Assembly (NCBI RefSeq): GCF_026151205.1
Contig: NC_087072.1
Span: 24,323,603 to 24,381,798, forward strand
Length of the DNA stretch: 58,196 nucleotides
Origin: Bolinopsis microptera
Taxonomy: Eukaryota > Ctenophora > Tentaculata > Lobata > Bolinopsidae
Direction of reading: 5' to 3'
Made by a program: the position numbers and the translations under genes. Of the stretch, positions 1,433-46,500 are shown piece after piece. Under the pieces are notes generated by a model that had not been told where the DNA came from, searched no databases, and was given only the letters and a program-made list of their open reading frames with translations. Every line of letters starts with the position of its first letter. Positions within the stretch are counted from its first letter, which is position 1.

Positions 1433-4400
1433 GTTTATGCCGGACACTTCACTGATGCGAGCATACCCGATATCAGAGTACAAGACAAAGCTAGTGGAGG
1501 GAGCAGCTGTGATACTCATGATAATGAACAACTTGGACTGGAGAGTCGCACAGTTCCCTGAGGAGCTGGTTACTTACGGTGGTAACGGCCAGGTTAGGGA
1601 CTTGTTACTTACGGTAGGAACGGCCATGTTAGGGACTTGTTAATTACGGTGGTAACGGCCATGTTAGGGACTTGTTACTTACGGTGGTAACGGCCAGGTA
1701 AGGGACTTGTTACTTACGGTGGTAACGGCCATGTTAGGGACTTGTTACTTACGGTGGTAACGGCCATATTAGGGAATTTTTACTTACGGTGGTAACGGCC
1801 AGGTAAGGGAATTGTTACTTACGGTGGTAACGGCCAGGTAAGGGACTTGTTACTTACGGCGGTAACGGCCAGGGTAAGGGACTTGTTACTTACGGTCTTA
1901 ACGGCCAGGTTAGGGACTTGTTACTTACGGTGTTAACGGCCAGGTTAGGGACTTGTTACTTACGGTGGTAACGGCCAGGTTAGGGACTTGTTACTTACGG
2001 TGTTAACGGCCAGGTAAGGGAATTGTTACTTACAGTGGTAACGGCCAGGTTAGGGACTTGTTACTTACAGTGGTAACGGCCAGGTAAGGGAATTGTTACT
2101 TACGGTGGTAACGGCCAGGTTAGGGACTTGTTACTTACGGTGGTAACGGCCAGGTTAGGGACTTGTTACTTACGGTGGTAACGGCCATGTTAGGGACTTG
2201 TTACTTACGGTGGTAACGGCCAGGTTAGGGACTTGTTACTTACGGTGGTAACGGCCAGGTAAGGGACTTGTTACTTACAGTGGTAACGGCCAGGTAAGGG
2301 AATTGTTACTTACGGTGGTAACGGCCAGGTTAGGGACTTGTTACTAAAGGTGGTAACGGCCAGGTTAGGGACTTGTTACTCACGGTGGTAACGGCCAGGT
2401 AAGGGACTTGTTACTAAAGGTGGTAACGGCCATGTTAGGGACTTGTTACTTACGGTGGTAACGGCCAGGTTAGGGACTTGTTACTTACGGTGGTAACGGC
2501 CAGGTAAGGGACTTGTTACTTACAGTGGTAACGGCCAGGTAAGGGAATTGTTACTTACGGTGGTAACGGCCAGGTTAGGGACTTGTTACTAAAGGTGGTA
2601 ACGGCCAGGTTAGGGACTTGTTACTCACGGTGGTAACGGCCAGGTAAGGGACTTGTTACTTACAGTGGTAACGGCCAGGTAAGAGACTTGTTACTTACAG
2701 TGGTAACGGCCAGGTAAGGGAATTGTTACTTACAGTGGTAACGGCCAGGTAAGGGAATTGTTATTTACGGTGGTAACGGCCAGGTTAGGGACTTGTTACT
2801 AAAGGTGGTAACGGCCAGGTTAGGGACTTGTTACTCACGGTGGTAACGGCCAGGTAAGGGACTTGTTACTTACAGTGGTAACGGCCAGGTAAGGGACTTG
2901 TTACTTACAGTGGTAACGGCCAGGTAAGGGAATTGTTACTTACAGTGGTAACGGCCAGGTAAGGGAATTGTTACTTACGGTGGTAACGGCCAGGTTAGGG
3001 TCTTGTTACTTACGGTGGTAACGGCCAGGTAAGGGAATTGTTACTAAAGGTGGTAACGGGCAGGTTAGGGACTTGTTACTAAAGGTGGTAACGGCCAGGT
3101 AAGGGAATTGTTACTTACGGTGGTAACGGCCAGGTTAGGGACTTGTTACTAAAGGTGGTAACGGGCAGGTTAGGGTCTTGTTACTCACGGTGGTAACGGC
3201 CAGGTAAGGGACTTGTTACTTACGGTGGTAACGGCCAGGTTAGGGACTTGTTACTAAAGGTGGTAACGGCCAGGTAAGGGAATTGTTACTAAAGGTGGTA
3301 ACGGGCAGGTTAGGGACTTGTTACTTACGGTGGTAACGGCCAGGTTAGGGACTTGTTACTAAAGGTGGTAACGGCCAGGTAAGGGAATTGTTACTAAAGG
3401 TGGTAACGGCCAGGTAAGGGACTTGTTACTTACGGTGGTAACGGCCAGGTTAGGGACTTGTTACTAAAGGTGGTAACGGCCAGGTAAGGGACTTGTTACT
3501 AAAGGTGGTAACGGCCAGGTAAGGGACTTGTTACTTACGGTGGTAACGGCCAGGTTAGGGACTTGTTACTTACGGTGGTAACGGCCAGGTTAGGGACTTG
3601 TTACTAAAGGTGGTAACGGCCAGGTAAGGGAATTGTTACTAAAGGTGGTAACGGGCAGGTTAGGGACTTGTTACTAAAGGTGGTAACGGCCAGGTAAGGG
3701 AATTGTTACTTACGGTGGTAACGGCCAGGTTAGGGACTTGTTACTAAAGGTGGTAACGGCCAGGTAAGGGAATTGTTACTTACGGTGGTAACGGCCAGGT
3801 TAGGGAATTGTTACTTACGGTGGTAACGGCCAGGTAAGGGACTTGTTACTTACAGTGGTAACGGCCAGGTAAGGGAATTGTTACTTACAGTGGTAACGGC
3901 CAGGTAAGGGAATTGTTACTTACGGTGGTAACGGCCAGGTTAGGGTCTTGTTACTTACGGTGGTAACGGCCAGGTAAGGGAATTGTTACTAAAGGTGGTA
4001 ACGGGCAGGTTAGGGACTTGTTACTAAAGGTGGTAACGGCCAGGTAAGGGAATTGTTACTTACGGTGGTAACGGCCAGGTTAGGGACTTGTTACTAAAGG
4101 TGGTAACGGGCAGGTTAGGGTCTTGTTACTCACGGTGGTAACGGCCAGGTAAGGGACTTGTTACTTACGGTGGTAACGGCCAGGTTAGGGACTTGTTACT
4201 AAAGGTGGTAACGGCCAGGTAAGGGAATTGTTACTAAAGGTGGTAACGGGCAGGTTAGGGACTTGTTACTTACGGTGGTAACGGCCAGGTTAGGGACTTG
4301 TTACTAAAGGTGGTAACGGCCAGGTAAGGGAATTGTTACTAAAGGTGGTAACGGCCAGGTAAGGGACTTGTTACTTACGGTGGTAACGGCCAGGTTAGGG

Positions 4401-7400
4401 ACTTGTTACTAAAGGTGGTAACGGCCAGGTAAGGGACTTGTTACTAAAGGTGGTAACGGGCAGGTTAGGGACTTGTTACTAAAGGTGGTAACGGCCAGGT
4501 AAGGGAATTGTTACTAAAGGTGGTAACGGGCAGGTTAGGGACTTGTTACTAAAGGTGGTAACGGCCAGGTAAGGGAATTGTTACTAAAGGTGGTAACGGG
4601 CAGGTTAGGGACTTGTTACTAAAGGTGGTAACGGCCAGGTAAGGGAATTGTTACTTACGGTGGTAACGGCCAGGTTAGGGACTTGTTACTAAAGGTGGTA
4701 ACGGCCAGGTAAGGGAATTGTTACTTACGGTGGTAACGGCCAGGTTAGGGAATTGTTACTTACGGTGGTAACGGCCAGGTAAGGGACTTGTTACTTACGG
4801 TGGTAACGGCCAGGTTAGGGACTTGTTACTAAAGGTGGTAACGGCCAGGTAAGGGAATTGTTACTTACGGTGGTAACGGCCATGTTAGGCACTTGCTGCG
4901 GTACGGCGTTGCAAATCGCATTTTCGCCGGCTGAGTCAATTGTTATATTCCTGTTGATGTCTGCTTTCCGGGGATACGTGTCACACACTGATCAGTAGCC
5001 AGGTAGCCTATAATTATAATAACCTGTAGTGTAGCTCTAACCTACACACAGTGTGGATGTACTGGACCACTGGATGTAGTATTAACTGCTTTTTCCTGGA
5101 GATTATTCTTAATAAACGAGCGACTGAAAATTTATCGTACTCTGTACGTGGACAGTGATTAATTGAATGTAGCTTAAAATTCTTTATTTGCGGTTAATCA
5201 GCCTCCTCTTTTTACATCCTATTAGGCTCACTACATGATTGGTTAAGAATATGATACTTCATGACTCCTGAGTTATGTAAACATTGCAAGTTCTTGTCGA
5301 ATTTGTCACCTTTTTATGATATCTAGCAGGTTGAATAAGGAACCGAAGTTGTTTAGACGCCCCCAGCTTCTTATCTTGACAAACTGGTCAACCCTGGCTG
5401 TTTTTTAGACAAGCTTTAGTGTAATGCGCGGCGCTAAACAATATTTTGCTATGCAAAAGGTGGCTTTTCAGCACTCACTGCGACATAAATGGGCGCGCCG
5501 CCACTGATTGGCTATAATGATGATGATGATGTGTCTGATTAAAAACCAAAACATGTTTTACAATGGTTTTACTTCTATTAATTCTAATTATTGACTAATC
5601 GTATTGACATATTCTCACGGAACACTGTTTCAGGTGTTTAGTAATTGGGCGCAGTTTAGACTAACTCTACATTATTTGAGTACAATGACAAACGAACAAA
5701 CCCTCTCCATCATGTCCGGCCACCCTGCTGGTAAGATATATCTTAATTTTTGGCGATAAATTTATGCAAAAATATACACGGATGATCTCTGAAAAAAAAA
5801 GTACAATGTGGTCTCGTGTGTTTTACAGTATTTAATATTTATTTACAAAGACGCTTATATTTATTCTGAAAAGTTTAACAAAAGCTCCTAATCAGGTCTA
5901 TTTCCCTCTCACAAGAGGGCACCACGGGTTGTGATAGCTAACGGTATGATGATTCCTAACTACAGTTCTAAAGACATGTACGACAAACTATTTGCTATGG
6001 GTTGTACCATGTACGGTCAAATGACTGCCGGTAAGCTAATGTCAAAAACATGTTTAAGATATGGTTCAATGGTTGCAGATTTTTCAGATTATCATGGCCA
6101 TCATTTTATATACATTTTGCTGCAGAATGATCTAGTGTCTCGACTACTGTGTACTGTGTAGCCTTTGAATTGAAATTAACCAAAAATTATATTATAGTGC
6201 GGCGCTGCGGCAGACTTAAATTAAGTTACAGGGTGGCCCAAAATTCAGCACACGTAAACGTTTTTCTTTATGATAAAGTTATGCCTCCTGTTCATGGCCT
6301 AATACTTTAGGTGACATGATGTTACCAGCCATTGCAGGAATCGGTCGTCAGAAAATTAAAATTCGCTTAAAATTCTATCACACTCTTTCAATCTAATGCA
6401 GTAGACCATAACGTCGTTCCGGTGAAACCATCTAATTATTATGTGCACTTGATTTCTGTGCACAAAGGGGTCATATAATTATGATCTTCGCTCACTTTGG
6501 GGAGATGAGTGCAAGATGAGCGCATAATTAAGTGGTCCAAGTGACAGATAAAGGATATCCAGAAGGAGCAAAGCAAACCTCTTTAAAAGGATTTTCAAAT
6601 ATTTGTTGCACTCGACTTCTGTCCTTTACTCCTTTCATTTCATTAAAATCATGTACAATAAGATCCATACTGTTTATTTTTCAGACCTTTTTTGATAGTA
6701 TAAAATTAATTCTATCCTCAAATAAATTGTAGGTTCAACTGCAAAAGATAGCGATATTTGTGCTAAGGTATTTTCTTGGCTCCTAACTCCTAAGTATGTA
6801 TGTGACAGGAGACAACTTAACTGTTGTGAAAGTTTGGGTATATCGCGTTTCTAGTTTTTCAAACTTTAGCCTGTTTTTAAGACTTTCCCATGGGAACTGT
6901 GTCGCAAACTTGTGTCGGTTTAAATGCTAAGGACCTTATGAATTAAATTAAGGTAAAAAACACTTGCTATGATGTTTTTTGCATAATCAAATATGCTCAA
7001 ATGAGATGATGATTTTGGCCATCTTAGGGTATATTCACATTAAATCAACATAATATGATGATGACAACATAGTTTTTAATAAAAGTGATAAAAGCCACTT
7101 TGAAAAGGATGATTAAACTATGCATTGCATAATTAAATATGCTCACATGAGATGATGATTTTGGCCATCTTATAAACCAACATGATAATTGATATGATGA
7201 TGACAACATAATTTTTAATAAAAATATAGCAAAAATCTACTGTTAGCGCTGGCCCTCTACTGAAAATCGTATTGTTATACCGAAATTTTGGTATATATAT
7301 TTTACTATCGAAGAGTTCGATTACAGTTTTATATAATATATACACTATACATACTAGTATAGCAGGAACCAGTCTCAAGACTCGAGAGACTAAAATAATG

Positions 7401-10400: not shown

Positions 10401-13400
10401 GGTTTAACTAAAGCTTAAACTCAGATGAACTGTTTTCAGGAAGCTACTGTTACATCGGTCCCCAAGGAATAGTCCACGGCACGACCATCACAGTGATGAA
10501 CGCTGGTCGGAAGTACCTAGGCCCCAACAACACGGCCGGTAAAGTATACGTAACATCTGGTCTGGGTGGGATGAGTGGAGCTCAGGGTAAAGCTATAGTT
10601 ATTGCAGGCTATGTTGGAGTTGTGGCTGAGGTTAGTGGTTGTAATATTAATATGTTATGTTGTTACAAACACTGCTGGGTTACAAATAGCGGAGGTATTA
10701 AATAAGGGGGGTCTTACGGGCTCCTTAGTCCCCCCTAACTTAGTATGTGTTTTTTACACTGACTTTCAGTTTAAAGAACTGAATACGCGTACGCCCCCCG
10801 TACGCATAATGCTATTAGGATTTTACTGAGGAGTCATGGTACAGATCTCATGTTACAAGCCTTAATTCATATAATATGTTGATTAAATACCTCAATTTTG
10901 TAATATAAAATTGTCCTTAACCTAAACGCGAAATTGTAATATAAAGATAATTTACGGAGCAACACCGAAGGTTTCCCGAGAAGCTCTGGATAAAAGACAC
11001 GCTCAGGGTTGGATCCAAGAGGTGGCTGACTCTGTTGATCAGTGTATAGAGCTTGTCAGAGAAGCAAGGAAGGCCACGAGAGTTCTCAGTATTGGGTAAA
11101 TTTAAGCTCTAGTTTTTGCCCATTACTAGATACTAATTGGACTGCAGCTGAGCTGCGACATTAACATTGGGGTGGCAGTCTGCAGCAGGTGTCTGCAGTT
11201 TAGCCTGTCAATGAATTAACATGACCATTTTGTCTCGACTTGTAATACACATGTTAAATAGTGGACCAAGTTAACTGTTAATAAGACTTCTCCCGCCCAG
11301 ATTTCATGGAAATGTGGTGACCTTATGGGAGGGATTTGCAGCGTACACAGAGCGCACTGAAGAGAACCTGGTCGAACTTGCCAGTGATCAAACCTCCCTC
11401 CACAACCCCTTTAACGGCGGGTACTACCCCGTACAGTTGTCTTACGAGGAGAGCAATGTGATGATGAACTCTGATCCGGCTCAGTTTAAATCTTTAGTTG
11501 AGGAGTCGTTAAGGAGACAAGTCAAAGCTGTTAATTACCTTTGTGGTAAGGGGATGCATTTCTGGGACTATGGAAACGCTTTCCTTCTTGAGGTTGGTAC
11601 AATTTGATTTCGGTTCGAGCTTGTCAGATACGGATTATTCTAGTGTGCATTTACTGCATCTGGCTAGTTTGTGTGCAAGTTTTTGCGTAATTACTAATGT
11701 TCTGTTTTGGAGTTTGCAATAAAATTCGATTATAAGAATTTGGAAAAACAATAATTAAATAACAAAACACAACAATGTTACAAAGTCACACATCAAATAT
11801 AAAAAACGGAAGGCTTTATAAAATGAGGATGTTTAATATATAAAATTCTATTTTTCAGTATTTACGTTATAACGATATTTTCAAATAACATATTGCGGTA
11901 AAAAGTGTATAAAATAAACTGTTTTTTATAAAGTATTTCATAAAGCATTTCATAAATTTGCATTCTTCAATCCTGTGCAATAAACAGAAATGAACCTATT
12001 ATATTGCAGGTCATCAATATTTTTCATTAAAAATCCCCTATCATCCTGCGCAGAAATGAAAAATTCTTGCAGGTCATCATTATATAGTCTTTATCAAAAA
12101 TTTCCTAAATAAAGGATGAAAATCATCGCTCTGAGAAACTTTGTGTTCGCAAAGTCACCGCTCATCTTGACAGTTCGGTGGATGGCTAATTCAGTCTGTT
12201 AGCCGGAACTTAGGTGCCTAAACTCACAGGGTCAGCGTCTAAGAATTGGAATAGTCTATTAGGCATCAAGGTAAGGAGGATCACCCTGGAGTGGACATCC
12301 TGAATTATAGACAGCTGCCTGGAACTCTCGTTTAGTTCCACAACCAATCTGCTGGAGGAAGTTCCTCGGGACTTTGTATCCAGCAATCTGACAGTGTTGA
12401 GCTATTGAGTTTGCGAAAGCACAAGTAGAACGTCCCTCGTATCGTGCCACCTTGGCAGCACATCCGTCCACGATGCACGAGTCTCTGTAGAATTTGGTGC
12501 CGATAACAGAAGCACATTCCGAGAAAGCGTCCGACTCCAGCATATTATCGCACTCCTCCTCTACCTCTGCTTGGTTATCGCATGTCACCTGTCCAACAGG
12601 TTCCTCAATTCCACACCAGTCGTATCTGTAGCCCCAGCTTGTTCCAAACTTGTTGCTATCATCTCCGGTCATTCCGAACCTGCCTCTGTACAGGTCATCT
12701 CCAGGCTCTCCGTTGTTGTTACCACAAATTCCCATAGTGTTCACTCCAGGACTGGTAATGATTTGAACTCCCCAAAATCCGTCAAACTGGACTTTTACTC
12801 CGTTCAGCATACTCAGCTCTATCGTTAGTCCGGTGTAGGTTACAATCATGTCGTCTATTTCCGCTGGCGTGTTCTTCTTGAGACGGAACTTCTCTCCGTT
12901 CTGTGCGACTATCCAACCTCTGGTAATAATCAGGGGTGCCTTGCTCCTGTCGTGGTGAATTACAACCTGCTCCAGACATGTTACTCCGTTTCCGCATGGC
13001 ATGAATCGACCTGAAATAAGTTGCGTTCAATAAATTTGTAGGGCTACAAATACAATGTATATAAATTCCCAGACTTGACATTGTTAAAATTTTGGTATGT
13101 TTAGTAAATATAGTATTTAGAATCAACATTGTAGGAGTTCTCAGAGTTTATAGCTTTTAATGTTATAAATGTGAAATGTGGAATTTGTAGAAAATGAGGT
13201 ACTTAGTCTTTTGAACTTACCAACAATCATCCACTCGTATCGATTGGCGTCCATCGCTAAGACGTAGTCGCAAACTCCCATGAAATCATATACCTTTCCA
13301 TCAAAAGTTTGAACGTGGGGATCTCCGAAAACTTTGCAGACCTTTGCTTTGGGGTTATCAACGAAGTTGTTGATTTCTTTGGGAATAACAACAACTTCGA

Positions 13401-16400
13401 CATCTTTGGAGACAACCTTCTTGCTACACTGCATGGCAATAGCTTTGTAGACTCCACCATCTCTCTCAGTGACACTTTGTACGAAGTGTTCGCTGTCTTC
13501 ACTGGCCATCTTTTGCTTGTTATTCTTCCTCATCTTCACCCATTTAAGAGAAGTAGGCATGGGGCTACCAGCGTAGGAGACAGTCAGAGACAGGCTTTCT
13601 CCTTCGTTGAGCTCAATCTTGGTAGCAGGCACAACCAGTTCGAGGGGATCGACCTTGCACTCTCCTTCGTTAACAAATATGAGGGGAATGTTATTCTCGC
13701 AACTGTGGGTCCTCATGTGGCAGCCGTTGTAGTAAGTCTGACAATCTGTGGCGCAGATAGGTTTGTAAGTTGGGTCCACACAAGGTTTACACTGGCACTC
13801 CGTGGTGAGAGTCTGGTAGTTGGGAGAACAGAACTTCCTTTTAGGGCACCTCACTCCTCTGCACAGATCTTCCTTCACTTCCATGTAGGCTCTGCTGAAT
13901 GCTACTCCGTGTTTATTGGATACGATGCAGACGTACCATCCTTGATCAGTATGAGCCAAATTCTTGATAGTCCTCTCGACGCTCACCTTGCTATCCAAAG
14001 ACCTTCGACGATTTCCTCCAGCGTTGAACATATTGAAGTCAGTTATGGTGTCCTCTTTGACAATCATAACATTGGGAGTGGGGCTGCCTTCACCCTTGCA
14101 GACAAAATTAGCAGTTTCTCCGACTCCGTTGGTAAAATTGGCTGGTCCTTGGATTATGACAGGCATGAGGTCTTCGAGAGCAGTTGCCGCAACAAATAGG
14201 GCGGCGAAAACAAACAGCATGTTAAAAAGCACGGCCAACACGTATCAGTTGTATTGAATACTATTGAGAAAAGTGAACTATGGGATATCTGTGTTCTAAT
14301 GAGTGCAGCTCCTGCTATATACTAGTTACAAAGTATCCCGCCCAGAGAGAGCGTGATATGATGACGTCACACGCGCTCGCTTCCCATTGGTTGAGCGGAG
14401 TGGGCTGGTAGCGCGCCGTCAGCATCCCTCCACACCTAGGCTTTAACATGTCCCTCATTTGTGACATGCTGGAACGCAAGTCAGCCCAAATAAGTACACG
14501 CTACACATTATCTCAAATAAATCATAACATCATCTTTGAATTGTGATTAGAGAATGTGAGAATATTTGTTGCAGATTGTCTGTATGCACATATTATATAT
14601 GCTAGTTCTAGTATAAAATTACAATGTGACATCGGAATTCAATTTTCACAAGAGATTGTTCGCTGACGCAATTTTTACGCTCAGTTCCGAATCCATGACC
14701 GTCTTATCTAAGATTTACTCCTGATTTCCTCACATTTGACGATAATTGCCGATCATCTCCTCGTTAATATAGTGAAGTAAAAATAGTCCGGAAACAGGAC
14801 AAGACAGGTCTAATTTTTGGCAGCAATTTTCGGCATTTGCTATGAAGTACCGGTAGTGATGATATCTTCCAGCGGCTTTCTTTTTGAACGACTACTCAGT
14901 ACCACGTGCCTGTACGCCCTGCTGGCAAAATTGGAAAAATTGTATTTCACATGTCACCGTTAATATACTGGTCTGCGTATATTGCAGGGGATCATCACTC
15001 CGTAGTTTGATATAAGCACCGGGCGTTGATTTATTGACCCAGATGTTGACACTGATGCTTAAATTGGATTTTGAGGGCAGTACTGAGTACATAACAGTCA
15101 TGAATTAAAGCTTTTAAAGGAGACATTTGGCAAGTGATCATATCTGCGATGACGGGTATTGGCAGAAAACCCACAACTATTACTTTTGAATTATAATAAG
15201 GACAGTGCAACTTCCTTGATTTGAAGTTTGTGAAGAGGTGAGCAGACGAGTGATCAAACGTTCGCTGACGAGTTAGAAAGTTAAACTGCTAACTCAGATG
15301 GATTCTCAATTATCATTCCTTCTTATTCTTGTGAATATAGAGGTTGTACTTACATTTTCTAAAGTGGTGGCTGCCTGACATGATGGCTGCATCCCATTCT
15401 AAAATAGATATAGTTGCTGTGCCCCACCCGGCCAAGGAACTAAAAAGGGTGACCGTTTAACCGCAATATTTAGATTTTAGAGTGCATCATACTCGCTTCA
15501 ACGGTTGACACATTCCAACTGAATGGCACTTTTGTTTACTCTCTACTCTCCTCTCGATGTAATGCACACCTGACACCAAAGTGTCACTTGTCACGTCTGG
15601 AATATTGTATTGATGACGGCACAATGATTTGAACTTCAAAATTACGCACGAGTCACTCTTAGGGCAGATTGGGGCGAATCCACATGTCCTGAGTCCTGAT
15701 TAAATTCCATCTCTATTTATCTTCCGCTGTGGTACTTTGGGATGGAGATGTTGCGTTTTGGAGCTAAACATACGATTGTTTAATGTTTAATATGGCCACA
15801 TTGAAACCTTTAGAAATGAATCTAGAAGTCAGTGTGCTTGCTCCAGGTGCCCACTGCGATTCTTCAAATGCCGTATTAATTCCAACTATAAGTATATTAC
15901 CCTGCATTTCTCTCTTCCGCTTACATTCCTCTACATTTTTAACTTCCTTCTCTGTACCAACACGAACATGTTACTTATCCGTCAATTCAGGCAAACGGCT
16001 GCAGGATATGAGGAATATTTCAAATATTCAGCAACAATTCTGACTGTACCATAGTAAAACAAGTTCAATCAAGTTCTGTAGAAAAATAAATGGCGGTGTC
16101 GACCTTGCCAGATGAAAATACCTTTATCATATTCATATCCCTAAACCTAAGCATATCATTGTTTTGCTGGCATGCTGAAGCCACTGAAACATGTTTTAAC
16201 AACCTGTTAAACGCAGCACACAGCAGGTAGACGGCCAGTTGTTTCCTGGCCTGGTTTAACTTTGTTGTTATTAAAACTATCACGGTAAACTATTTACAGT
16301 GAAACATTAAGCTCCGGAAAGCAAACCACGTACAATTATAATATCGGTCCAACCAAGCTAATTATTTTTTACTCTTTTCGACACCTAAAGAGATCAATGA

Positions 16401-19400
16401 ACCTCTTCGAATATTTTCATATTTTTTTCAAAAATAATCTGTCACTCCCATCACTGTAAATGTGCAGTAACAATGAAATATTTAGCTGTCTCTAGGTTTT
16501 TTCTTGCAGTAAATTCATATTTCTGCAAGCTTTTCACTTCTAGTTCTTTGGCGCCGCCACTACTACAATAAAGAGATTATAATAAAGTTGTTGACTGCTC
16601 TTTTGAAACGTACATGTATAACGTATGGATGTGTTTGAGTATTTGAAGAATCGGAAAGTTAGTGACAGGTATGTTTTGGAAAACGCCTTCTCGTTTGGTG
16701 ACTTGACTTCCTTACAAGTTGCTATGCCGATTTGCTAAATTAAGCGTGAATTTCAATTTTAACCCGTAAATTTTGATCTTTTAATCATGTGACGAGCTAA
16801 TTTCAAGATTGTTCGTGTCAAATTTACACCAAATTTGTCACGGCACAAGAAGATAATATTTAATTATTTTACCGGAAATTTTGTCAGTTGAAAGATAATG
16901 AACAGTATCGCCTCAAGGCTCAAAATGCTCGTTAGCACCGAATTAAAGTATCTTATCATATTAAGATTTCTTGTTATAACAGTCGGTGAAACTTGTAGGT
17001 TATCAATTGTAGTACGGTTTCCAGCGCTGAAATAACTTTTCAAAAATTCCCAAGAATTTCCATTAGATCATGCATTGTTGAGTATTGGCCATCGAGTCAC
17101 CCCGAAGCTGGGACTATGGTTTAATGGTTAATGGTCGTTGTGCTGGGTTATGCCGAACTTATTGGAGGATTTCAGTCGCTACAAACTATTTTTCTAAGAA
17201 ACCGGAGCTTCAAACATTTACCTAGGTATAATTGGTAATAGCAGATTTATCAAGGTCGGGTGGCATTATGTTGCAGGATAATGATCTAAGTTTTACCCCG
17301 AGTAGGGCTTGTAACACTAGTTATCAATCTAAAACACCTTACCCGGACCTGAACCATCACTAACGATACACTAGAACAAGCCTGAAGCCACTTAACGAGT
17401 TATCCAAGAGCCTGTTTCTTAATTTATCTCAATTATATGTACTATGTTGATTGTTGAAACCCGAACAATAGGGTTTAATTAGGCTGACCGTAAACCGAGA
17501 CCCGGTAATATTTGTGAGCTTTAACATTTCATGCCAATTATATGCCTGTGAAGCTGTTTAAAATAATAAATTAGACTACGAGCTTTATTTTAAAATCCTA
17601 TTTTTATTTCCGGTTTTTACTAGTCTTCCGCAATAACTGTAAAAATTAAAGTTAAAAATGTTGCATGGAATAAATGCGGGTTTGAAAAAGCTAAAATTTA
17701 CTGTGTCGGGTTGACAGAGGGTGTGCCAATTTTATTTTCATGGAGCTGGCGCCAGACTGATAGTATTAGTTCATTTATCATTCAGTTCGGAGCAACATGA
17801 GTTAAGTTTAGGGGACCTTAAAACATCATCGATACTTAAACAAGTGAAACATTAGGTTTTTATGCTGGAGATATAAGTTAAACTAATATTTAGTGGCAAA
17901 AAAAACTTACGTTTCGCTTGTACAACTATCATCATGTTAATATCTGGGCCAATATCATAATTCACAGAAAGTTGATATTATCAGGACAATAAACTCGTTC
18001 TCATGCTGCATGACAGTTAAACTAAACGAAGCCTGTCAAACCCCTTCCATAATCCTGGCTCTCAGCTTCTTAAACATGACTTTAATTCCCGTGTGAAAGT
18101 AATTAATGCATCTTGACATATGTAACTATTGGCAGGCTAGTAGAGCCGTGGCAGGCTAGTAGAGCCGTGGCAGGCTAGTAGAGCCGTGGCAGGCTAGTAG
18201 AGCCGTGGCAGGCTAGTAGAGCCGTGGCAGGCTAGTAGAGCCGTGGCAGGCTAGTAGAGCCGTGGCAGGCTAGTAGAGCCGTGGCAGGCTAGTAGAGCCG
18301 TGGCAGGCTAGTAGAGCCGTGGCAGGCTAGTAGAGCCGTGGCAGGCTAGTAGAGCCGTGGCAGGCTAGTAGAGCCGTGGCAGGCTAGTAGAGCCGTGGCA
18401 GGCTAGTAGAGCCGTGGCAGGCTAGTAGAGCCGTGGCAGGCTAGTAGAGCCGTGGCAGGCTAGTAGAGCCGTGGCAGGCTAGTAGAGCCGTGGCAGGCTA
18501 GTAGAGCCGTGGCAGGCTAGTAGAGCCGTGGCAGGCTAGTAGAGCCGTGGCAGGCTAGTAGAGCCGTGGCAGGCTAGTAGAGCAGATGTCACCAAACCGG
18601 ATGATTTGGGTTTAGAGACCCGTTAAACATGATCGATACTTAAACAAGTGAAACATTATCTTTTTGTCCGCTAGATATAACCTAAACTAATATTTAGAGG
18701 CGAAAACAATCACGTTGAGCTTGCTAAAGTTAAACTATCGCCATGTTTATTATTATATCTGGAAGGTCAAAATCATGATTCGCTCACCCCTTCCATAATC
18801 CTGGCGCTCAGCTTCTTAAACATGACTTTAATTCCCGTGTGATAACAATTAATGCATCTTGACATTTGTAATTATTGGCAGGCCAGTAGAGCCGGAGCAG
18901 ATGTCACTAAGCCGGATGGTAGCTTTATTTACCCGACCTACGTACAGCTGACTATCGGCAATGTGTTTTCGCTCGGGTTCGGACCCTTCAGGTGGGTTTG
19001 TGCCAGTGGCAGGGAGGAGGATCTCCAGAAATCAGATGAGATAGCTGCTGGGGTTATCAGAGAGCAACTTACTGAGAGCCCTAGTCCGGAGGTGGAGGGT
19101 AACCTTCGAGATAACCTCACTTGGGTCAGTTTATTTTATATTTATTCTTATATTTATTTCTAGATATTAGCTCTATATTAGCTCTATGACAAAGGCGTTG
19201 TTTGTAAGGAATTGGAACAATATACTGCACTGTATCGTCACATTGTTGATTGTAATTCACTCTTGAAATACAAATAATTTGTGATTTTATAGTGTTGAAA
19301 TAGCTACAAAATAAGCTTTTAAGTGTTTCAAGTTAAGATTCCCAATTCTGACAATTTTTTAAATAGTTTGTTTAAGTCTAAAAGACATAGATGTAGATTC

Positions 19401-25400: not shown

Positions 25401-27723
25401 AAGGAAGGAAACATGATACTACAGAAACTGAGAAACATGTGATGTACGTGTACAATGTACATGTACAAAGGCCTCATGGATCTATGTCTGTAACTCTGTA
25501 AAGTTGGGGTTATTATATTCTGACGAAGTATTCTGCAGGAGAGTGTAGGAGTGTGGTGTGGTCTGCAGGAGAAGCTGAATGCGGGATACTGGATAGACCC
25601 CAAGAGGATAGCATGAAGACCTACCTCTGGGATGACTGGGGTGTCCTAAGCAGGGTTGTGAAATTCAAATACGTGTTTTACGTTTTTTTGAATCGGAGCG
25701 TTTTTACGTTTTTTAACAGGTTTTTGCGTATTTATTTTAAAAACGTTGTGATTTATACGGAAATTTACAATGTTTTGACGGTCACCGACTACCAGTAAAC
25801 GAACCAGCGAAGTACGAACACTGAGGCCTGGGCCACAATCACATAAGCAGATTGCAGTCTGCAGTTACACTGTACACTTACATTCCTATTAAAACTGCAA
25901 AGTATCGAAACGATCCATCACATATCCTCATTACTCACTTTATTATTGTAGTTAAGCGAACATTCCAGACTCTGCTATATTATATGAAACTGCAGCTGAT
26001 TCCCACCCCTCTTAGTTATTCGTGTTACATGTACAGCAACTTAGAAAGCAAGAGTTTCAACAGCCAACACAACTGGCAAGTTTGATTGGTCATACCGCTA
26101 CATTTTGAATTTCCACGTGAGTCGGCTTGATTAGATTATGCGAACGTTTTTTCTCGTTTTTGAACGTTTTTTGAAAAGGATAGAAAAAAGCACGTTTTTA
26201 ACGTTTTTTGAGTTTACCATTTACGTTTTTCACAACCCTGGTCCTAAGGAGATGATACCGCGGAAATCTATGAGAAAATGAGGGGGTCGAGTGGCAGGTC
26301 GAGTGAGGAGGAATAAGTAATATTATAACATGACGTATATTGTACATGAGCACACCTCATCATACAGCGCTGAATAAGAGCTGCATGCTGGTCACAAGAC
26401 ATGGTCACAAGGCATGGTCGCAACATGTCACCTTAAGGGAGCTGGATAGACGTTACACAAATGCGAAACAACGGTCGAAAACAAACGGTTATTTCACTCT
26501 GTTTATATGGATATGATATGATTTGATGAAATATGATAGTAACATCATCAAGTTCGGTGAAATATGATACCATAATCAGGTGACAGAGATTAAGAAGCAC
26601 AAACCAGTTGACAACGGTCGGAAAGTGATCACGTGATGTTTAAAAGCTTTTAAACACAATCCTTATCTTAATGATCTATCTCATATTTCTAGAACCCCCC
26701 TGCAAAACACTGATTAACCTACACAGGTCACAGGTATGAGAGCTACCTCAAAATAATGGGCTGTTCAAATCAAGCTTTATTGATGAAGACCTTTTTACAC
26801 TCGATTATAATGAGATACGGAAACATAAAACATGTACCTCATCGTGATTTGATCGGGTTGTACTTCCTAGATACATTCTTTAGGTTCAAACGTGAATACA
26901 TAGGGTGAAAGCCAAAGCTCAATGCACATGTATGTCCTTATTAGACTGCAAATAGAGACTGCAATTAGACTGCAATTAGACTGCAACAACACAAAACCTA
27001 AGTTTACGACCTAATCAAAGAACTTTACATAAACTGTTCGAGAGAACAACAAGCAACAAACAGGGTACATTGGAGAGGCCTAATACATCGGAGAATGGAG
27101 TTACTATGTGGTGCAGGCCACTCCAATGACTAGGAGGAGACCTTTTTAAGTACAAGTAGTAAGATTGTCTGTTTATGTAGTTATGTGTCAACTGTTACCC
27201 TCCATTGTTGCACTGTTGCTTTGACTAATGAGATGTAATAGGAAAGTCCTACATCAGATTAATGTATCTAACTCATAAATACATGTCCTATATTTCTTGA
27301 GAGATATTGAGGAAATTATTAAACTGAGAGATTTTGCCAAGAAACTGAAAGGAACTAGAGGCGAACATTTGCTAAATCGTATGTGACTTTTGTGTTTAAC
27401 ATGCGGTTATTGCGGGCTCTATTTTAATTATATCATGCTTCTTTAATGTTCCAACAAATTAAGTTTATAACAATTTGAATAATTAACATTTCCCTCTCCA
27501 GGTGATGAACGGAGGGTTCGGGATGGTGCTGGACGGTAGTGAGGAGGCAGGTGAAAAAGCAGTTTCCATGTTACACTGGGACGTAAGTAACGGGGTCTGT
27601 AGGCGAGCCTGGGCCGGCCACCCTCTAGCTCAACAGGCTATGTCCAACACTCAGGACACTGTGCCTGGGTATCATGTCACCATGTGTAACAATGCTGATG
27701 AGGATTTGATCCGGAGCCTTTAG
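1433..27723 (+). CDS. UROC1: Urocanate hydratase (urocanase), 5' incomplete
   Basis: Cytosolic NAD+-dependent enzyme of histidine breakdown, converting urocanate to imidazolonepropionate. Ten exons with consistent phases: 1433-1592, 5634-5730, 5896-6030, 10440-10630, 10971-11095, 11301-11592, 18882-19124, 20206-20340, 20832-21011, 27502-27723 (TAG stop). They join into about 592 residues; the vertebrate enzyme has roughly 676, so about 85 N-terminal residues lie upstream of the window. Recognisable blocks in order: MRAYPI, ELVTYGGNGQVFSNWAQF, MSGHPAG, NGMMIPNYSS, MYGQMTAGSYCYIGPQG, TSGLGGMSGAQ, SDQTSLHNPFNGGYYPVQLS, FWDYGNAFLLE, GFGPFRWVC (cysteine of the catalytic region), VVGSQARILY, LSRDHHDVSGTDSP, HNGGGVGWGE and NGGFGMVLDG. 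The exon-5 acceptor at 10970 has a weak pyrimidine tract. Introns host two complete minus-strand genes, two splice-site minisatellites and transposons. The known family motifs make the call very secure. Confidence 0.96.
1570..4895 (+). repeat. 35-bp minisatellite made of a 5' splice site, 95 copies
   Basis: The first copy (1570-1604) is the real end of the urocanase exon (codons for TYGGNGQ) plus the start of its intron, joined at CAG|GTTAGG. That unit then repeats to 4895. The spacing from first to last copy is 3291 bases, 94 units of 35 plus one base, explained by one inserted G near 1872. Most copies carry CAG|GTAAGG or CAG|GTTAGG, close to the animal 5' splice consensus. Common variants are TACTTACGG, TACTAAAGG and TACTTACAG before TGGTAACGG, and GGGCAG for GGCCAG. 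The final copy reads CAT|GTTAGGC. Because 35 is not a multiple of 3, copies rotate through frames, and the frame runs into a stop at 1641-1643. Only the first donor joins cleanly to GTG TTT AGT at 5634. Confidence 0.97.
4896..5633. other. Urocanase intron remainder
   Basis: Unique sequence between the minisatellite and the exon at 5634. It contains a short (ATG)n-like microsatellite near 5512-5532 and a pyrimidine-rich acceptor ending TGTTTCAG at 5633. No other gene seen. Confidence 0.6.
6031..10439. other. 4.4-kb urocanase intron
   Basis: AT-rich intron between the exons at 5896-6030 and 10440-10630. Two adjacent plus-strand open frames at 7917-8345 and 8347-8703 have no recognisable domain, and I do not call them genes. 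Apart from the imperfect duplication at 6981-7230 I see nothing interpretable. Confidence 0.6.
6981..7230 (+). repeat. Imperfect tandem duplication, 146-bp offset
   Basis: The block starting GCATAATCAAATATGCTC at 6981 recurs at 7127 with substitutions and small indels. Both copies contain GAGATGATGATTTTGGCC and a GATGATGACAACATA stretch. Intronic, no coding content. Confidence 0.8.
11593..12258. other. Urocanase intron left of the nested VWD gene
   Basis: AT-rich sequence that should include the 3' untranslated region of the nested minus-strand gene. A short direct repeat containing TTGCAGGTCATCA occurs near 12004 and again near 12073. No exon recognised. Confidence 0.5.
12259..14220 (-). 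CDS. Secreted Ig-Kazal-Ig-VWD-C8 protein
   Basis: Two exons, 14220-13221 and 13010-12259, phase 1 junction, donor GTTG|GTAAG and acceptor TTTCAG; 583 residues. I start at the ATG at 14220, which begins a clean signal peptide (MLFVFAALFVAATALE); an in-frame upstream GTG is not credible. Order: signal peptide; Ig-like domain (VCKGEGSPTP ... DQGWYVCIV, about 20-115); cysteine-rich follistatin/Kazal-like module (CPKRKFC ... CKPCVDPTYKPICATDC, about 120-190); second Ig-like domain (about 195-285); VWD domain opening with CKVFGDPHVQTFDGKVYDF and including GICGNNNGEPGDD; then a C8-type cysteine module to the end. No transmembrane segment. The families are extracellular and the product is probably matrix or mucus-associated (inference). 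It lies entirely inside a urocanase intron on the opposite strand. Confidence 0.9.
14316..14321 (-). promoter_or_regulatory. Possible TATA box of the VWD gene
   Basis: TATATA on the minus strand, about 96 bases upstream of the ATG at 14220. The position fits a short 5' untranslated region; no transcript data. Confidence 0.35.
14322..17811. other. Urocanase intron between nested gene and duplicated intron end
   Basis: About 3.5 kb of AT-rich sequence. Short minus-strand frames at 14892-15101 and 16065-16283 and a plus-strand frame at 15783-16043 match nothing I know. No further exon, RNA gene or clear transposon seen. Confidence 0.5.
17812..18881 (+). repeat. Duplicated 3' end of a urocanase intron
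   Basis: The intron end before the exon at 18882 is present twice. The left copy (about 17812-18130) and right copy (about 18609-18881) share ATCGATACTTAAACAAGTG, CTTCCATAATCCTGGC, CAGCTTCTTAAACATGAC and AATGCATCTTGACAT, then the acceptor TTGGCAG followed by GCYAGTAGAGCC. The left copy also kept about 30 bases of the exon (GCAGATGTCACCAAACCGGA), which soon meets a stop. Substitutions and indels show it is not brand new. The left acceptor is the seed of the 19-bp array. Confidence 0.92.
18131..18583 (+). repeat. 19-bp minisatellite made of a 3' splice site, 24 copies
   Basis: Unit GGCAGGCTAGTAGAGCCGT, 23 copies that look identical plus a partial last one. The unit is the duplicated acceptor CAG plus the first exon bases (compare CAG|GCCAGTAGAGCCGG at the true junction, 18879-18893). 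The lack of variation suggests very recent expansion. There is no polypyrimidine tract between copies, so only the first site has a normal acceptor context. There are no spacers, so it is not a CRISPR array. Confidence 0.97.
19125..20205. other. Urocanase intron
   Basis: AT-rich intron between exons at 18882-19124 and 20206-20340. Short direct repeats (AGCAAGTTCTCACTCTG twice near 20150-20180) lie just before the acceptor. No gene seen. Confidence 0.55.
20341..20831. other. Urocanase intron
   Basis: AT-rich intron, donor GTAAGT at 20341, acceptor CTCGACAG at 20831. Nothing else recognised. Confidence 0.55.
21012..21659. other. Urocanase intron left of TIR element
   Basis: Starts with donor GTGAGG. 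No feature recognised before the transposable element at 21660. Confidence 0.5.
21660..23121. mobile_element. Non-autonomous TIR element with dispersed internal motif, 1462 bp
   Basis: Perfect 25-base terminal inverted repeats (21660-21684 and 23097-23121; outer bases CGGGTATCGGCCTTAC) flanked by TA on both sides, consistent with a TA target duplication. A 15-base motif, CCTYACAAAATGACA, recurs about seven times forward in the left and middle part and about three times inverted in the right part (near 22748, 22913 and at the right terminus). No transposase reading frame; the longest frame is 88 codons without family features. Mariner-like or another TA-targeting superfamily is possible, but the family is not assigned. 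Confidence 0.85.
23432..25256 (-). CDS. SLC22-like organic ion transporter (MFS)
   Basis: Two exons, 25256-25058 and 24852-23432, join as GCAG|GT...TTTCAG|GT in phase 1; 539 residues, usual for SLC22. The ATG at 25256 is the first in frame; the frame opens two codons earlier at a GTG. An N-terminal cytoplasmic stretch precedes TM1 (SWKYTALLMSLMLVWLGG). A large extracellular loop with several cysteines follows, containing SAEFDLYCD, equivalent to the EWDLVCD element of OCT/OAT proteins. Next is the MFS signature GGYLFDRIGRK, then further membrane segments, a central cytoplasmic loop, DWQGRR between later helices, and a C-terminal ETRNKPIP resembling PETKGKPLPET. It should be a plasma-membrane carrier of organic cations, anions or carnitine-like solutes; the substrate cannot be inferred. 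It lies in the last urocanase intron on the opposite strand. Confidence 0.92.
25651..26240. mobile_element. Non-autonomous hAT-type element, 590 bp
   Basis: Terminal inverted repeats CAGGGTTGTGAAA (25651) and TTTCACAACCCTG (26228-26240), flanked by a perfect 8-base target duplication GTCCTAAG (25643-25650 and 26241-26248). CAGGG ends with 8-bp duplications are typical of hAT transposons. Both subterminal regions are packed with ACGTTTTT-like words in both orientations, possible transposase-binding sites. No coding capacity. It sits about 400 bases upstream of the SLC22 start and within the last urocanase intron. Confidence 0.93.
26249..27501. other. Urocanase intron end
   Basis: AT-rich, with short direct repeats of AGACTGCAATT near 26940-26985. 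The acceptor at 27501 follows a strong pyrimidine tract (TTTCCCTCTCCAG). No gene recognised. Confidence 0.55.
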
Positions 27724-33700: not shown

Positions 33701-34882
33701 CCTTACTCGGGATTATTATAACGGCCAGGTAGCGCAGTTAACGGCCAGGTAGCGCAGTTGGTTAGCCAGCTTTGCAATCGTGAGGTTGCGGGTTCAAATC
33801 CCACTGCCTGCCTGGTCGTGGGGTGAGTGTTGTTGACATTCAGCTTAGGATCGTGAGTGGTCTATGCAGCCCCCCGGTCTACTCAGCCGAATACTCGAGA
33901 AATCGGGTGTGAGGGTTAAATGAGGAGCTGCACATTGCAGCAAAGTCTCGGGCGAAGAAAGTATGGTACACACTACCTTAACCGTCACTGGCTAAAAACA
34001 AATCCTTCGGCTTCCTGTAATTGGCTGGTTGCACTTGTGTAACAATATGGCTGTTGGAATACTCCGAAGTAAAATAAGTGTCTAGATAAAAAAAAATTAT
34101 GACCGGGATAAAGTGGTGGGTTTAGGGTAATTTCGCCATATTTTTCCCGAACCACATTTTCACCGGTCGTTAATAAACCCGCCTACTCAGCTTTTAGGGT
34201 TCCCAAGGGGTATGGGTGCTCATATTTTAATCGTTGTCTTATATTCACTAAAGAAGACTATTGGGACACTTGTTGTAGGTTTTTCGACTTCATTTGGCTA
34301 AAATTGCAAAAAATTCACCTTTTTGCCCAATTCTTGTCATATATCCTTATTGTCAAATTTGATTTAAATAGGCCAATTTTTAATTTCTTAGGTATTGACT
34401 ATCTCTACATAATGAAATAGGACTAAAAGTAAAAGTAACAGTTAAATTAAAACTTGAATTAATTAAAACTGATGAAAGGGATGATCCAGATGAAGATAAC
34501 GAAGATGATTACAACTTATTGGAAGACTAAACAGCTCTCCCTTTATCTTAATATCGATCTGGTTGTTACGCTTCAAATGTTAAAAACTATTTTCCATCCA
34601 GTTTGATTAACCACGAGTCATTATTTCTGTCTACTTTCAACAATTATTGATAATTTGACTTGTTTCACAAGTTTTAGCAATGCGAAAATTTCTAAACTTG
34701 CTTATCTCTAATAAGGAAATTTACATCTGAGACAACATTTTTGAATCTAAAATTGAAAGGTTGGACACCGGTAAAATGGCGACCGGGAAAATGTGGTGGG
34801 TTTTGAGCAATTTCGCCATATTTTTCCAGAACCATATTTTAACCGGTCGTTAATAAACCCGTCGTAATAATCCCGAGTAAGG
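33701..34882. mobile_element. Composite TIR element of the CCTTACTCGGG family
   Basis: Ends CCTTACTCGGGATTATTA (33701) and its exact inverse (ending 34882) with flanking TA on both sides. Two partial internal copies of the 121-bp relative seen at 43981-44101 occur at about 34101-34184 and 34778-34882 (shared words GTGGTGGGTTT, TTTCGCCATATTTTTCC, CCGGTCGTTAATAAACCCG). A SINE splits the left copy. The 34185-34777 part is unrelated filler without a transposase. Confidence 0.85.
33720..34096 (+). mobile_element. tRNA-derived SINE, tRNA-Ala-like head
   Basis: The head contains a pol III A box (TAGCGCAGTTGG, 33750-33761) and B box (GGTTCAAATCC, 33791-33801) at normal spacing. The anticodon-arm region resembles tRNA-Ala(UGC), with CTTTGCAA. 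The first 20 bases are duplicated (33720-33739 and 33740-33759). The body runs to an A-rich tail (about 34088-34096). The insertion interrupts the TIR element and is bracketed by a short ATTAT/TTAT duplication (33715-33719 and 34096-34100). Stem pairing is imperfect, so it is a SINE head and not a functional tRNA gene. Confidence 0.82.
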
Positions 34883-43531: not shown

Positions 43532-46500
43532 ATGAGCTACATCCTTACACTCCCTTTTCTGATTATAGGTAAGCTGTAATTATATTGTCGAGTGATCTGG
43601 ACTCTGGTGGGGAGGTGGACCTTATTCTCATGTGTTGACACGTGAGGGTGATTCTGAGTTTTTATTGGTCAACACGGGAAGATTAATGGATAAACTTAGG
43701 CTTGTATCAGAAAGAATATGGTTCATATCCCTACTGGAGTATCAAGATCTATATTGTGGCACCATATACTACTAAATGTGCCCTGTTCGTCGCGCACTGA
43801 TAGTGGATGAAGTGGTCAGTGACTCAGTGACCACTGTGGTCACACCGTGGTCACACCGTGGTCACTCTGGTCACACTGTGCAGCGTGTAATATTGTGGAT
43901 ACTCCTAATACTGGTAAGGGATACTCTGCAGACTAATCATATCGTGGTCAATGTAACCACTGTAGTGGCTTGTGCTGTTACCTTACTCGGGAATATTATG
44001 ACTGGGATAAAGTGGTGGGTTTTGGAAAATTCCGCCATATTTTTCCCGGTCATTAATTTTCCCAGTCATAAATTAACCCGCTATAATATTCCCGAGTAAG
44101 GTATAGGAATTCAACCAAATAACCCAACCATTCGGGTTGCGCGATCATTCGGGCTTTTCGTGTCGGTTACTGCAGACAAGGCAACAATTAATTTCGTAAT
44201 CTTGCAACTATCACTTTACCCACCTGATCGTCCAATAAAAAGGCACGCTCCAAGGACTTTTCCAAACGGAATGTTATAATTTGACCATTGATTCTCATTG
44301 ATCAAGGAGGATTAAAGTTAATCAAAGAGAATGACGTAGAGAATAGTGTAGAATTGTACGCGTAGCATGTCTTATTTTATGCTTACAGTGACCTAGTGTG
44401 AAATAATGAAATAGCGAAGTACTGTGAATCAAATATCATGCCTTCGCTTGAGGCATAACTATATAATTGATGATTTTCGATTTATCAGCAATTCATATTT
44501 GTTCATACTTAGGAAGCGTGGTGCTATCAAATCACCAAATGTTAGGTAATGTTGGGTTTGTCGTGAAAAAACGTGATAATATGTCAATGTGGTAATTATA
44601 ATAATATTATGTGATAATTATAATGTGTGATACGTGTGTTCACAGCACTATTCTGCTTCGGTGGTATCTTCTCATTGTGCACTTGCTTATGTAATGTTTA
44701 TGCATTGTGTACATATTTGTGTACTACTGATATTACTATGCTCATGAATTAATTTTAATTGGCCAATGATCATGCACCCATAGATCTAAAAGCACACATT
44801 GTTGTATAAATATAATAATCGCATATATATATATATACAATATACATCTGATCGATAAATTCTTCCAAATTAAAATATATGGAAATTGAAAGTGTACACT
44901 TAAATGAGTCGCTCTGGCGCTCTAAATTTTCCATGATTCCACTACAACAATCACTGTATTTTGCAACAGCTCCGCTAATATACTCTTTATTCCCAGGTTT
45001 TCTTACAAAAATTGGTGACTCTGAAAATGATGGTTACCGACTCAAAGAAACCCAAGAAAGGGTAAATTCAGACAGCGGGGTAATCACTCCAAACCATACC
45101 ATCTACCTAGCAGTCCTCACTGACATCAGCTCTAGTCTGTATGCGGTAAGTAGTGTACAATTCTCATGTTTAGTTGTTTTTAACATTTCTAACATTATGC
45201 CATCTTGTTTGTTTTAAACGTGCACTTCGGATGACACGGTACGTGATTATTCGGTTGACACTTGACACGTAATTATTTGAGCAATTCAACACCTCTCAGA
45301 CGACGGGGTATGAGAACTTAGCCGCTGCTCGGCTAGCTATTGAAGATATCAACGCTGATAAAACCTTCCTGCCCGGCTATCATTTTGACATGTTGTTCAA
45401 AGATGACGGATGTGATATGGAAATTGGACTCAAAGCGCTGACTAACGCCTATGATAACGAGGAAAATAAGTAATATATATATAAGCCTTATCTGACTCGA
45501 AACTAATAACGAGCTGTAAAATACATTAATTATGAAATGTAATTCAACCACTTTAATTATACAACTACTAATGCTACTTTGCCAGTTACTACTAAACTGC
45601 TGCATACATACTTAAGTATACTTAACCTTGACCCTGCTGTTTTTCAGGAAGATTCACGCAGTTATTGGAATATTGTGCTCCGTACTTAACCTTGACCCTG
45701 CTGTTTTTCAGGAAGATTCGCGCAGTTATTGGAATATCGTGCTCCGTAGTGTGTGAGTTGGCCGGGTACTTGTGTTCCTCGGATCAGTGGAATATCCCCG
45801 TCGTATCCCACTCTTGCTCTTCCGACGATCTTTCTAAAACTGACAAATATCCCACCTTCGCTAGGTAAATAATAAATATATGTTGTATTTTGGTTACGAT
45901 CGGATGAAGCTGATAAGTATTATTGAGAAGACGGTTATCCTTTCTCAACTCTTGTAATTTATTTTTATCTCTTCTTGAAATAACGTCATTTACTTATTTT
46001 ACAGGTTATCATTGTCGGTGTTCAAGTATACCAAATCTATTATAGCCATCTGTAATAGGTTTAACTGGATTAAAGTTGGCTTGATGGTCAACAACATAGA
46101 TTGGTAAGAGTGCCTGACCGTTTGCTTTTTTGCTGTGTTTAACATTTTTAACACTGCGGGCCCTCGCTTTGTACGACAGGAAAAGCTACTTTAACATCAC
46201 TAACAATAAAAGTTAAACAATTCCCCGCTAATCTTTAAGTATAAATACATTTTTTAATTGAAAAGGACGAATATATCACTCTATATCGTCACATACGGCA
46301 GGTATGTGAAAACAGCTGGAAAGATGAAGGAACTTATGGGAACTAAAGAAAACAACGGAATGTTGGACATAGAAGTAATGTTAGAGAAGTTTTACTTTGA
46401 TGAAAATTCGGACGACGAAACTTCCGACACTTATCAGCTCCTTGTGGAACAGCTAAACAGGATGAAAACTAAAGTCAGAGGTGAATAGACTAGAATAATC

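Follow-up and report, generated by a model that had tools for sequence, protein, structure and literature searches.

A 95-copy minisatellite made of a urocanase 5' splice junction in the ctenophore Bolinopsis microptera, and similar arrays elsewhere in the genome

Within a urocanase gene of the ctenophore Bolinopsis microptera the junction between one coding exon and the intron that follows it is present 95 times, head to tail. This is very probably a minisatellite that started on the 5' splice site of the exon and was lengthened by unequal exchange or slippage, what in amphioxus has been called a 'mirage', and it is probably neutral. The array lies near the start of the stretch of 58,196 nucleotides that was analysed (G000:C1:24323603-24381798, from here on the window, to which positions refer unless a contig is given), and the genome that was searched comprises 264.65 Mb in 232 contigs. 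The features that are needed to follow the argument are given below, where a slash marks the boundary between exon and intron.

1433 to 1592, + strand: urocanase exon ending TYGGNGQ, the last 24 bases of which seed the array (Pfam Urocanase_N 4.7e-14; solved urocanate hydratase 6e-14).
1569 to 4894, + strand: minisatellite of 95 units, each with 24 nt of exon tail and 11 nt of intron start (Tandem Repeats Finder, unit cutting).
1590 to 1598, + strand: authentic 5' splice site, CAG/GTTAGG (frame test; U1 duplex -7.6 kcal/mol).
1604 to 1778, + strand: units 2-6, of which units 2, 3, 5 and 6 are without a donor (CAT/GT or CAT/AT; unit comparison).
1641 to 1643, + strand: first in-frame stop when reading past donor 1 into the intron (frame test).
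2900 to 3494, + strand: units 39-55, a block of 17 units that recurs without change 945 bp downstream as units 66-82, at 3845-4439 (unit comparison).
4895 to 5633, + strand: remaining intron, of unique sequence, with the acceptor TGTTTCAG at its end (sequence reading).
5634 to 5730, + strand: next urocanase exon (VFSNW...), with a phase 0 junction to donor 1 (Pfam Urocanase_N 2.8e-8).

The exon from which the units are derived is 160 nt long, its translation ends VTYGGNGQ and its alignment with the solved urocanate hydratase in the PDB extends through the GGNG. Four further downstream stretches were tested, starting at 5634 (where the Urocanase_N domain is carried on), 5898, 10436 and 11275, and these match successive following parts of urocanase in Pfam. 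Genome-wide profile searches, which weak matches can escape, find Urocanase_N, Urocanase and Urocanase_C at this locus only, as 3, 3 and 4 exon pieces, with the last piece ending at C1:24351244, at about position 27642 of the window. As the matches fall in consecutive exons and at one locus only, the exon at 1433-1592 is real and is part of what looks like a single complete urocanase gene. A candidate N-terminal exon (NALRYFPKECHSELAAEFAKELDDFGHIYMYR), read by eye about 1 kb upstream of the window, has what we take to be a resemblance to animal urocanases.

Tandem Repeats Finder, when run on the window, reports the array at 1569-4895 with a period of 35, 95.0 copies, 92% matches and 0% indels. 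Cutting 1569-4894 into units gives 95 that lie head to tail, 94 of them 35 bp long and one, unit 9 (1849-1884), 36 bp long. Each consists of the last 24 bases of the exon followed by the first 11 bases of the intron, with unit 1 being the tail of the exon at 1433-1592 itself (TYGGNGQ/GTTAGG), and with units that are 92% identical over 3.3 kb a chance pattern is ruled out. The donor 9-mer is CAGGTAAGG in 44 units, CAGGTTAGG in 42, CATGTTAGG in six and CATATTAGG and CAGGTAAGA in one each, whilst unit 9 has CAGGGTAAGG, with one extra G. An initial annotation of this DNA had proposed that a donor junction was amplified about 95-fold within the urocanase gene, that the first unit was the genuine end of a coding exon plus its donor, and that nearly all of the copies keep CAG/GTAAGG or CAG/GTTAGG; the number of units, the single locus of the urocanase families and the domain and structure matches bear out the first two of these proposals, and the third agrees with the 86 of 95 units that carry one or other form exactly.

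There are 27 types of unit among the 95 and the commonest, with 21 copies, is identical to unit 1, which is also conserved coding sequence, and the exon is therefore the source of the array. Units 39-55 are repeated exactly as units 66-82, a run of 17, compared to a maximum of six when the units were shuffled 500 times, and this pattern fits the unequal exchange that had been suggested previously. Of the 95 units, 14 have a sequence that no other unit shares; nine of these lie within units 2-14 and unit 95 is another, as would be found when the edges are homogenised less. The exact repeat of 17 units, 945 bp apart, could in principle be a mis-join, with the array or its copy number then an artefact of assembly, but the 27 types of unit lie in a long ordered pattern, both flanks are unique, the gene continues beyond them and a DNA search of the genome finds the array at one place only, which makes an artefact highly improbable. 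The donor motif varies like the other positions of the unit, with 4 of its 9 positions variable against 12 of the remaining 26 (in the 94 units of 35 bp, the 36-bp unit being left out). Selection on the donor motif was thus not found by this comparison, and block duplication alone suffices to account for the sameness of the copies.

Judged by length, 32 of the 95 donors are in phase with the next exon, yet it is only from donor 1 that the frame is open into that exon, and the array has 72-85 stops per frame in all six frames. The earlier statement that the first donor alone joins in phase is thus incorrect for length and correct for the open frame. The genome has 10 matches to U1 genes above the family cut-off, and in all eight of the loci that were fetched the 5' end is ATACTTACCTG. 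The predicted duplex of U1 with the authentic CAGGTTAGG has an energy of -7.6 kcal/mol and that with CAGGTAAGG, present in 44 copies, one of -11.5 kcal/mol, with two other donors of the urocanase gene giving -8.0 and -8.2 kcal/mol. The copies had been described as strong U1 sites, a description that suits about half of them but not the authentic GTTAGG, which is weaker.

It could be that such an array has a function as a decoy or kinetic device, in which dozens of donor-like sites hold the U1 small nuclear ribonucleoprotein on the pre-mRNA and in doing so delay splicing, shield the intron from early polyadenylation or set the share of productive urocanase mRNA. The CAG/GTWAGG donor kept in 86 of 95 copies, the 44 copies with the stronger predicted pairing, the U1 genes of the genome itself with their constant 5' end and the restriction of the productive frame to donor 1 would all suit this role. 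However, the motif varies as much as the remainder of the unit, its sameness is explained by block duplication alone, the fold of the array is not special and amphioxus mirages reportedly leave regular splicing undisturbed (PMC3087553). In predicted folds of units 1-19 the mean accessibility of the donors is 0.005, compared to 0.019 for shuffled units, but it is lower still in 8 of the 40 shuffles, and a fold that hides the donors was rejected on these grounds. As neither the test of motif constancy nor that of folding gave support for it, the decoy role put forward in the initial annotation appears very unlikely.

A seeded minisatellite, which is the preferred explanation, would have begun across the 5' splice site of the exon and grown through unequal exchange or slippage. 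The spliceosome would then act mostly on donor 1 to give the normal 160-nt exon, and the use of a later donor would lead to a premature stop and a truncated product, probably with decay of the message. The array may be tolerated because unit 1 retains both the protein sequence and the splice site, and arrays at other exon ends would be the same accident in a genome that is rich in minisatellites.

The claim that no described system amplifies a donor junction in this way was wrong, as published examples exist in both amphioxus and human. The mirages of amphioxus, found in Adh3, the globins BflGb6 and BflGb9 and TnC, are described as minisatellite-like duplications of exon/intron boundaries (PMC3087553, PMC3902484). 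Those of Adh3 have units of 10-72 bp, and mirages in general retain their splice signals in many copies, involve either the 5' or the 3' boundary and have edge units that escape homogenisation (PMC3087553), with imperfect boundary duplications also being present in PGBD5 (PMC3902484). A length that is unstable between individuals or tissues is a further mark of the class. The urocanase array is alike in that its units span a real exon/intron boundary, with support from both Pfam and the PDB, its 35-bp unit falls within the range of 10-72 bp, CAG/GTWAGG occurs in most copies, the block repeat is a sign of concerted evolution within the array and the edge units are less homogenised. It is unlike them in having 95 copies compared to 3-6 in the globin example, and in belonging to another kind of animal. 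The structural features of a mirage are thus present.

Mirages have been proposed as a route to intron gain in amphioxus globins (PMC3087553), and the CAG/GT of each intact unit could serve as both acceptor and donor, so that a new intron or a recursive splice site might arise from the array. Yet the units have no pyrimidine tract before the CAG, the intron already has an ordinary acceptor at 5633 and there is no sign of a new intron, and it is very unlikely that the array has this role. Variable tandem repeats that carry splice sites at exon-intron boundaries of human paralogs (PMC2812944) and intron gain by tandem duplication (PMC4974935) have also been described, and the urocanase array is like these in that variable repeats at a boundary carry splice sites. 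It is unlike them in that the outcome there is a new intron, whereas here the array sits inside an intron with an ordinary acceptor.

The minisatellite of the human gene IFI6 (G1P3, 6-16) has a unit of 12 bp. It reportedly supplies several splice donors (Turri 1995), with two downstream repeat units acting as donors that give rise to protein variants (PMC4526556), which is unlike the urocanase array, where none of the donors after the first leads into the next exon in an open frame. Comparable arrays were not found in a literature search of published work on ctenophore minisatellites. The urocanase array is a large further example of a known phenomenon, and not an undescribed system.

What is new here is that boundary-spanning donor arrays recur at a few other genes of the genome, similar arrays elsewhere not having been seen in the initial annotation. 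Counted genome-wide, there are 1,380 places with triples of CAGGTRAG in a short space compared to 205 for the reversed motif, 669 compared to 0 for MAGGTAAGT and 234 compared to 49 for MAGGTGAGT, and for MAGGTGAGT, the one motif covered by the comparison of single sites, these are about equal in number (3,908 and 3,818 reversed). The first 100 places of each motif search yielded at least 15 arrays for MAGGTGAGT, at least 4 and at least 7 for MAGGTAAGT and at least 2 for CAGGTRAG, and the complete control list of 49 places with the reversed motif yielded 7. The upstream side was inspected for 28 sampled donor-motif arrays and for that of urocanase, 29 in total; the 29 include two arrays with common flanks (L015 and L026) and a 12-bp satellite (L038).

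Exon ends have support from homology in 4 of the 29 arrays, those of urocanase, DPH2, ADPGK and, more weakly, a WD40 protein. In DPH2 (L017) the exon tail is joined in phase to the next exon and the Pfam match to Diphthamide_syn (5e-20) crosses the junction, whilst ADPGK (L034) matches ADP_PFK_GK at 3.9e-9 in Pfam. The WD40 exon (L037) has a Pfam WD40 match of 7e-4, below the gathering score, and a match of 1.1e-12 to the PkwA chain in the PDB, which is a whole-chain sum over repeats with no single stretch passing alone. At a further 5 of the 29 (L018, L028, L029, L036 and L041) the exon end is called from an open frame and splice-site fit alone, as read by eye, because Pfam gave nothing above the cut-off for any of them and the PDB search, to which all but L018 were submitted, gave no match for L036, L029 and L028 and only E = 0.71 for L041. 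The upstream sides of the remaining 20 arrays showed no convincing exon. A stop occurs within 24 nt past the first donor in all seven of the exon-end arrays tested for this (L017, L018, L028, L029, L034, L037 and L041; L036 was left out).

It is possible, although rather unlikely, that minisatellites in this genome start preferentially at exon-intron junctions, by way of a process linked to transcription or splicing; equally doubtful is the wider idea that 5' splice-site junctions are hot seeds, with many genes carrying arrays of extra U1 sites and urocanase as the extreme case. The excess of MAGGTGAGT triples over the reversed motif when single sites are equal points in this direction, as do the excess for MAGGTAAGT (a comparison of triples only), the larger number of distinct MAGGTGAGT arrays in the first 100 of 234 places than in the complete control list, and the at least four of 29 arrays that are at exon ends by homology. 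On the other hand 20 of the 28 other arrays are without a convincing exon, and when all 29 were compared to 2,000 random positions the frame leading up to the first donor was open for no greater length (p = 0.45). If the threshold is set at 45 codons, 13 of the 29 arrays pass, compared to 574 of the 2,000 random positions, which is marginal (p = 0.049); of 13 AGGTRAG sites in random stretches of the genome, 4 pass.

Those random stretches, eight of 8 kb with 63,103 readable bases, contain 11 arrays of 5 or more copies, eight in one stretch and none in five, and the window contains four. If the clustered eight are counted as one locus there would be roughly 60 loci per Mb and 17,000 in the genome. 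Taking the number of introns to be 50,000-100,000, which is our guess, and a unit of 35 bp, about 100-200 donor-spanning arrays would be present by chance; rough as this estimate is, it means that random seeding can explain such arrays and it counts against preferred seeding at junctions.

Several observations weigh against a neutral array with a random start. About half of the copies have duplex energies with U1 that are better than that of donor 1, and the normal use of donor 1 is something we infer from the sequence. Donor motifs in arrays outnumber the reversed control, an excess that is not an obvious consequence of random seeding alone, and the donor motif in the form searched was present in the units of 0 of the 11 arrays from the random stretches. 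Furthermore, the donor is lost in 4 of the 5 units 2-6 compared to 3 of the 89 other later units (hypergeometric 5.6e-5, post hoc), and these dead donors beside the exon could reflect selection on splicing, against nearby decoys, or the shared ancestry of edge units. Selection against nearby decoys was set aside because the test is post hoc, because units at the edge have a common ancestry and because in the DPH2 array the four donors that follow the first are all intact, and for this last reason the dead-donor pattern in urocanase is not built upon.

Boundary-spanning minisatellites, known from amphioxus and one human gene, can therefore grow to 95 copies, and the genome of another animal has them at several unrelated genes. 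Arrays of this kind are natural experiments in donor choice, as they set dozens of nearly identical 5' splice sites one after another, and at urocanase the spliceosome would have to settle on a single donor out of nearly ninety, with about half of the copies pairing more strongly with U1 than the donor that is required.

A number of further repeats were observed along with these arrays. One of at least 7 kb (G000:C1:6658081-6665084, the start of which is in L035) has a unit of about 57 bp with two CAGGTAAG motifs, and no exon was recognised on the upstream side of its start. The 31-bp repeat at G000:C8:386015-386676, starting in L040, has in its unit both AAGGTAAG and the near-complement CTTACTTACC, so that each unit carries the donor motif on both strands. 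The 28-bp AAGGTGAGT arrays L015 (G000:C1:1996353-1998253) and L026 (G000:C2:19849749-19851649) have upstream flanks in common although they are on different contigs, which points to the repeat being carried by a dispersed element. At G000:C1:4182436-4183016, on the minus strand, AAGGTGAGT sites occur at multiples of 44 bp, a donor-motif array that is beyond the searched spacing and outside the 29.

The window also contains a boundary duplication on the acceptor side.

45619 to 45748, + strand: 64-bp unit present twice, covering a 3' splice site and the first part of an exon (Tandem Repeats Finder; exon ANF_receptor 2.1e-9).

A 20-bp repeat at 33719 has TAACGGCCAGGTA in common with the urocanase array and was rejected as a relative of it, as it sits in what by eye is a tRNA-like repeat. 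A perfect 19-bp repeat at 18130-18583 (23.9 copies, 100% identity) lies in a later intron of the urocanase gene, and inspection of its flanks showed no exon at its edges. The same intron, between the urocanase exons at 11275-11604 and about 18963, holds at 12259-14244 on the minus strand a gene with immunoglobulin (Ig), Kazal and von Willebrand D domains, which appears to be nested there on the strand opposite to urocanase.

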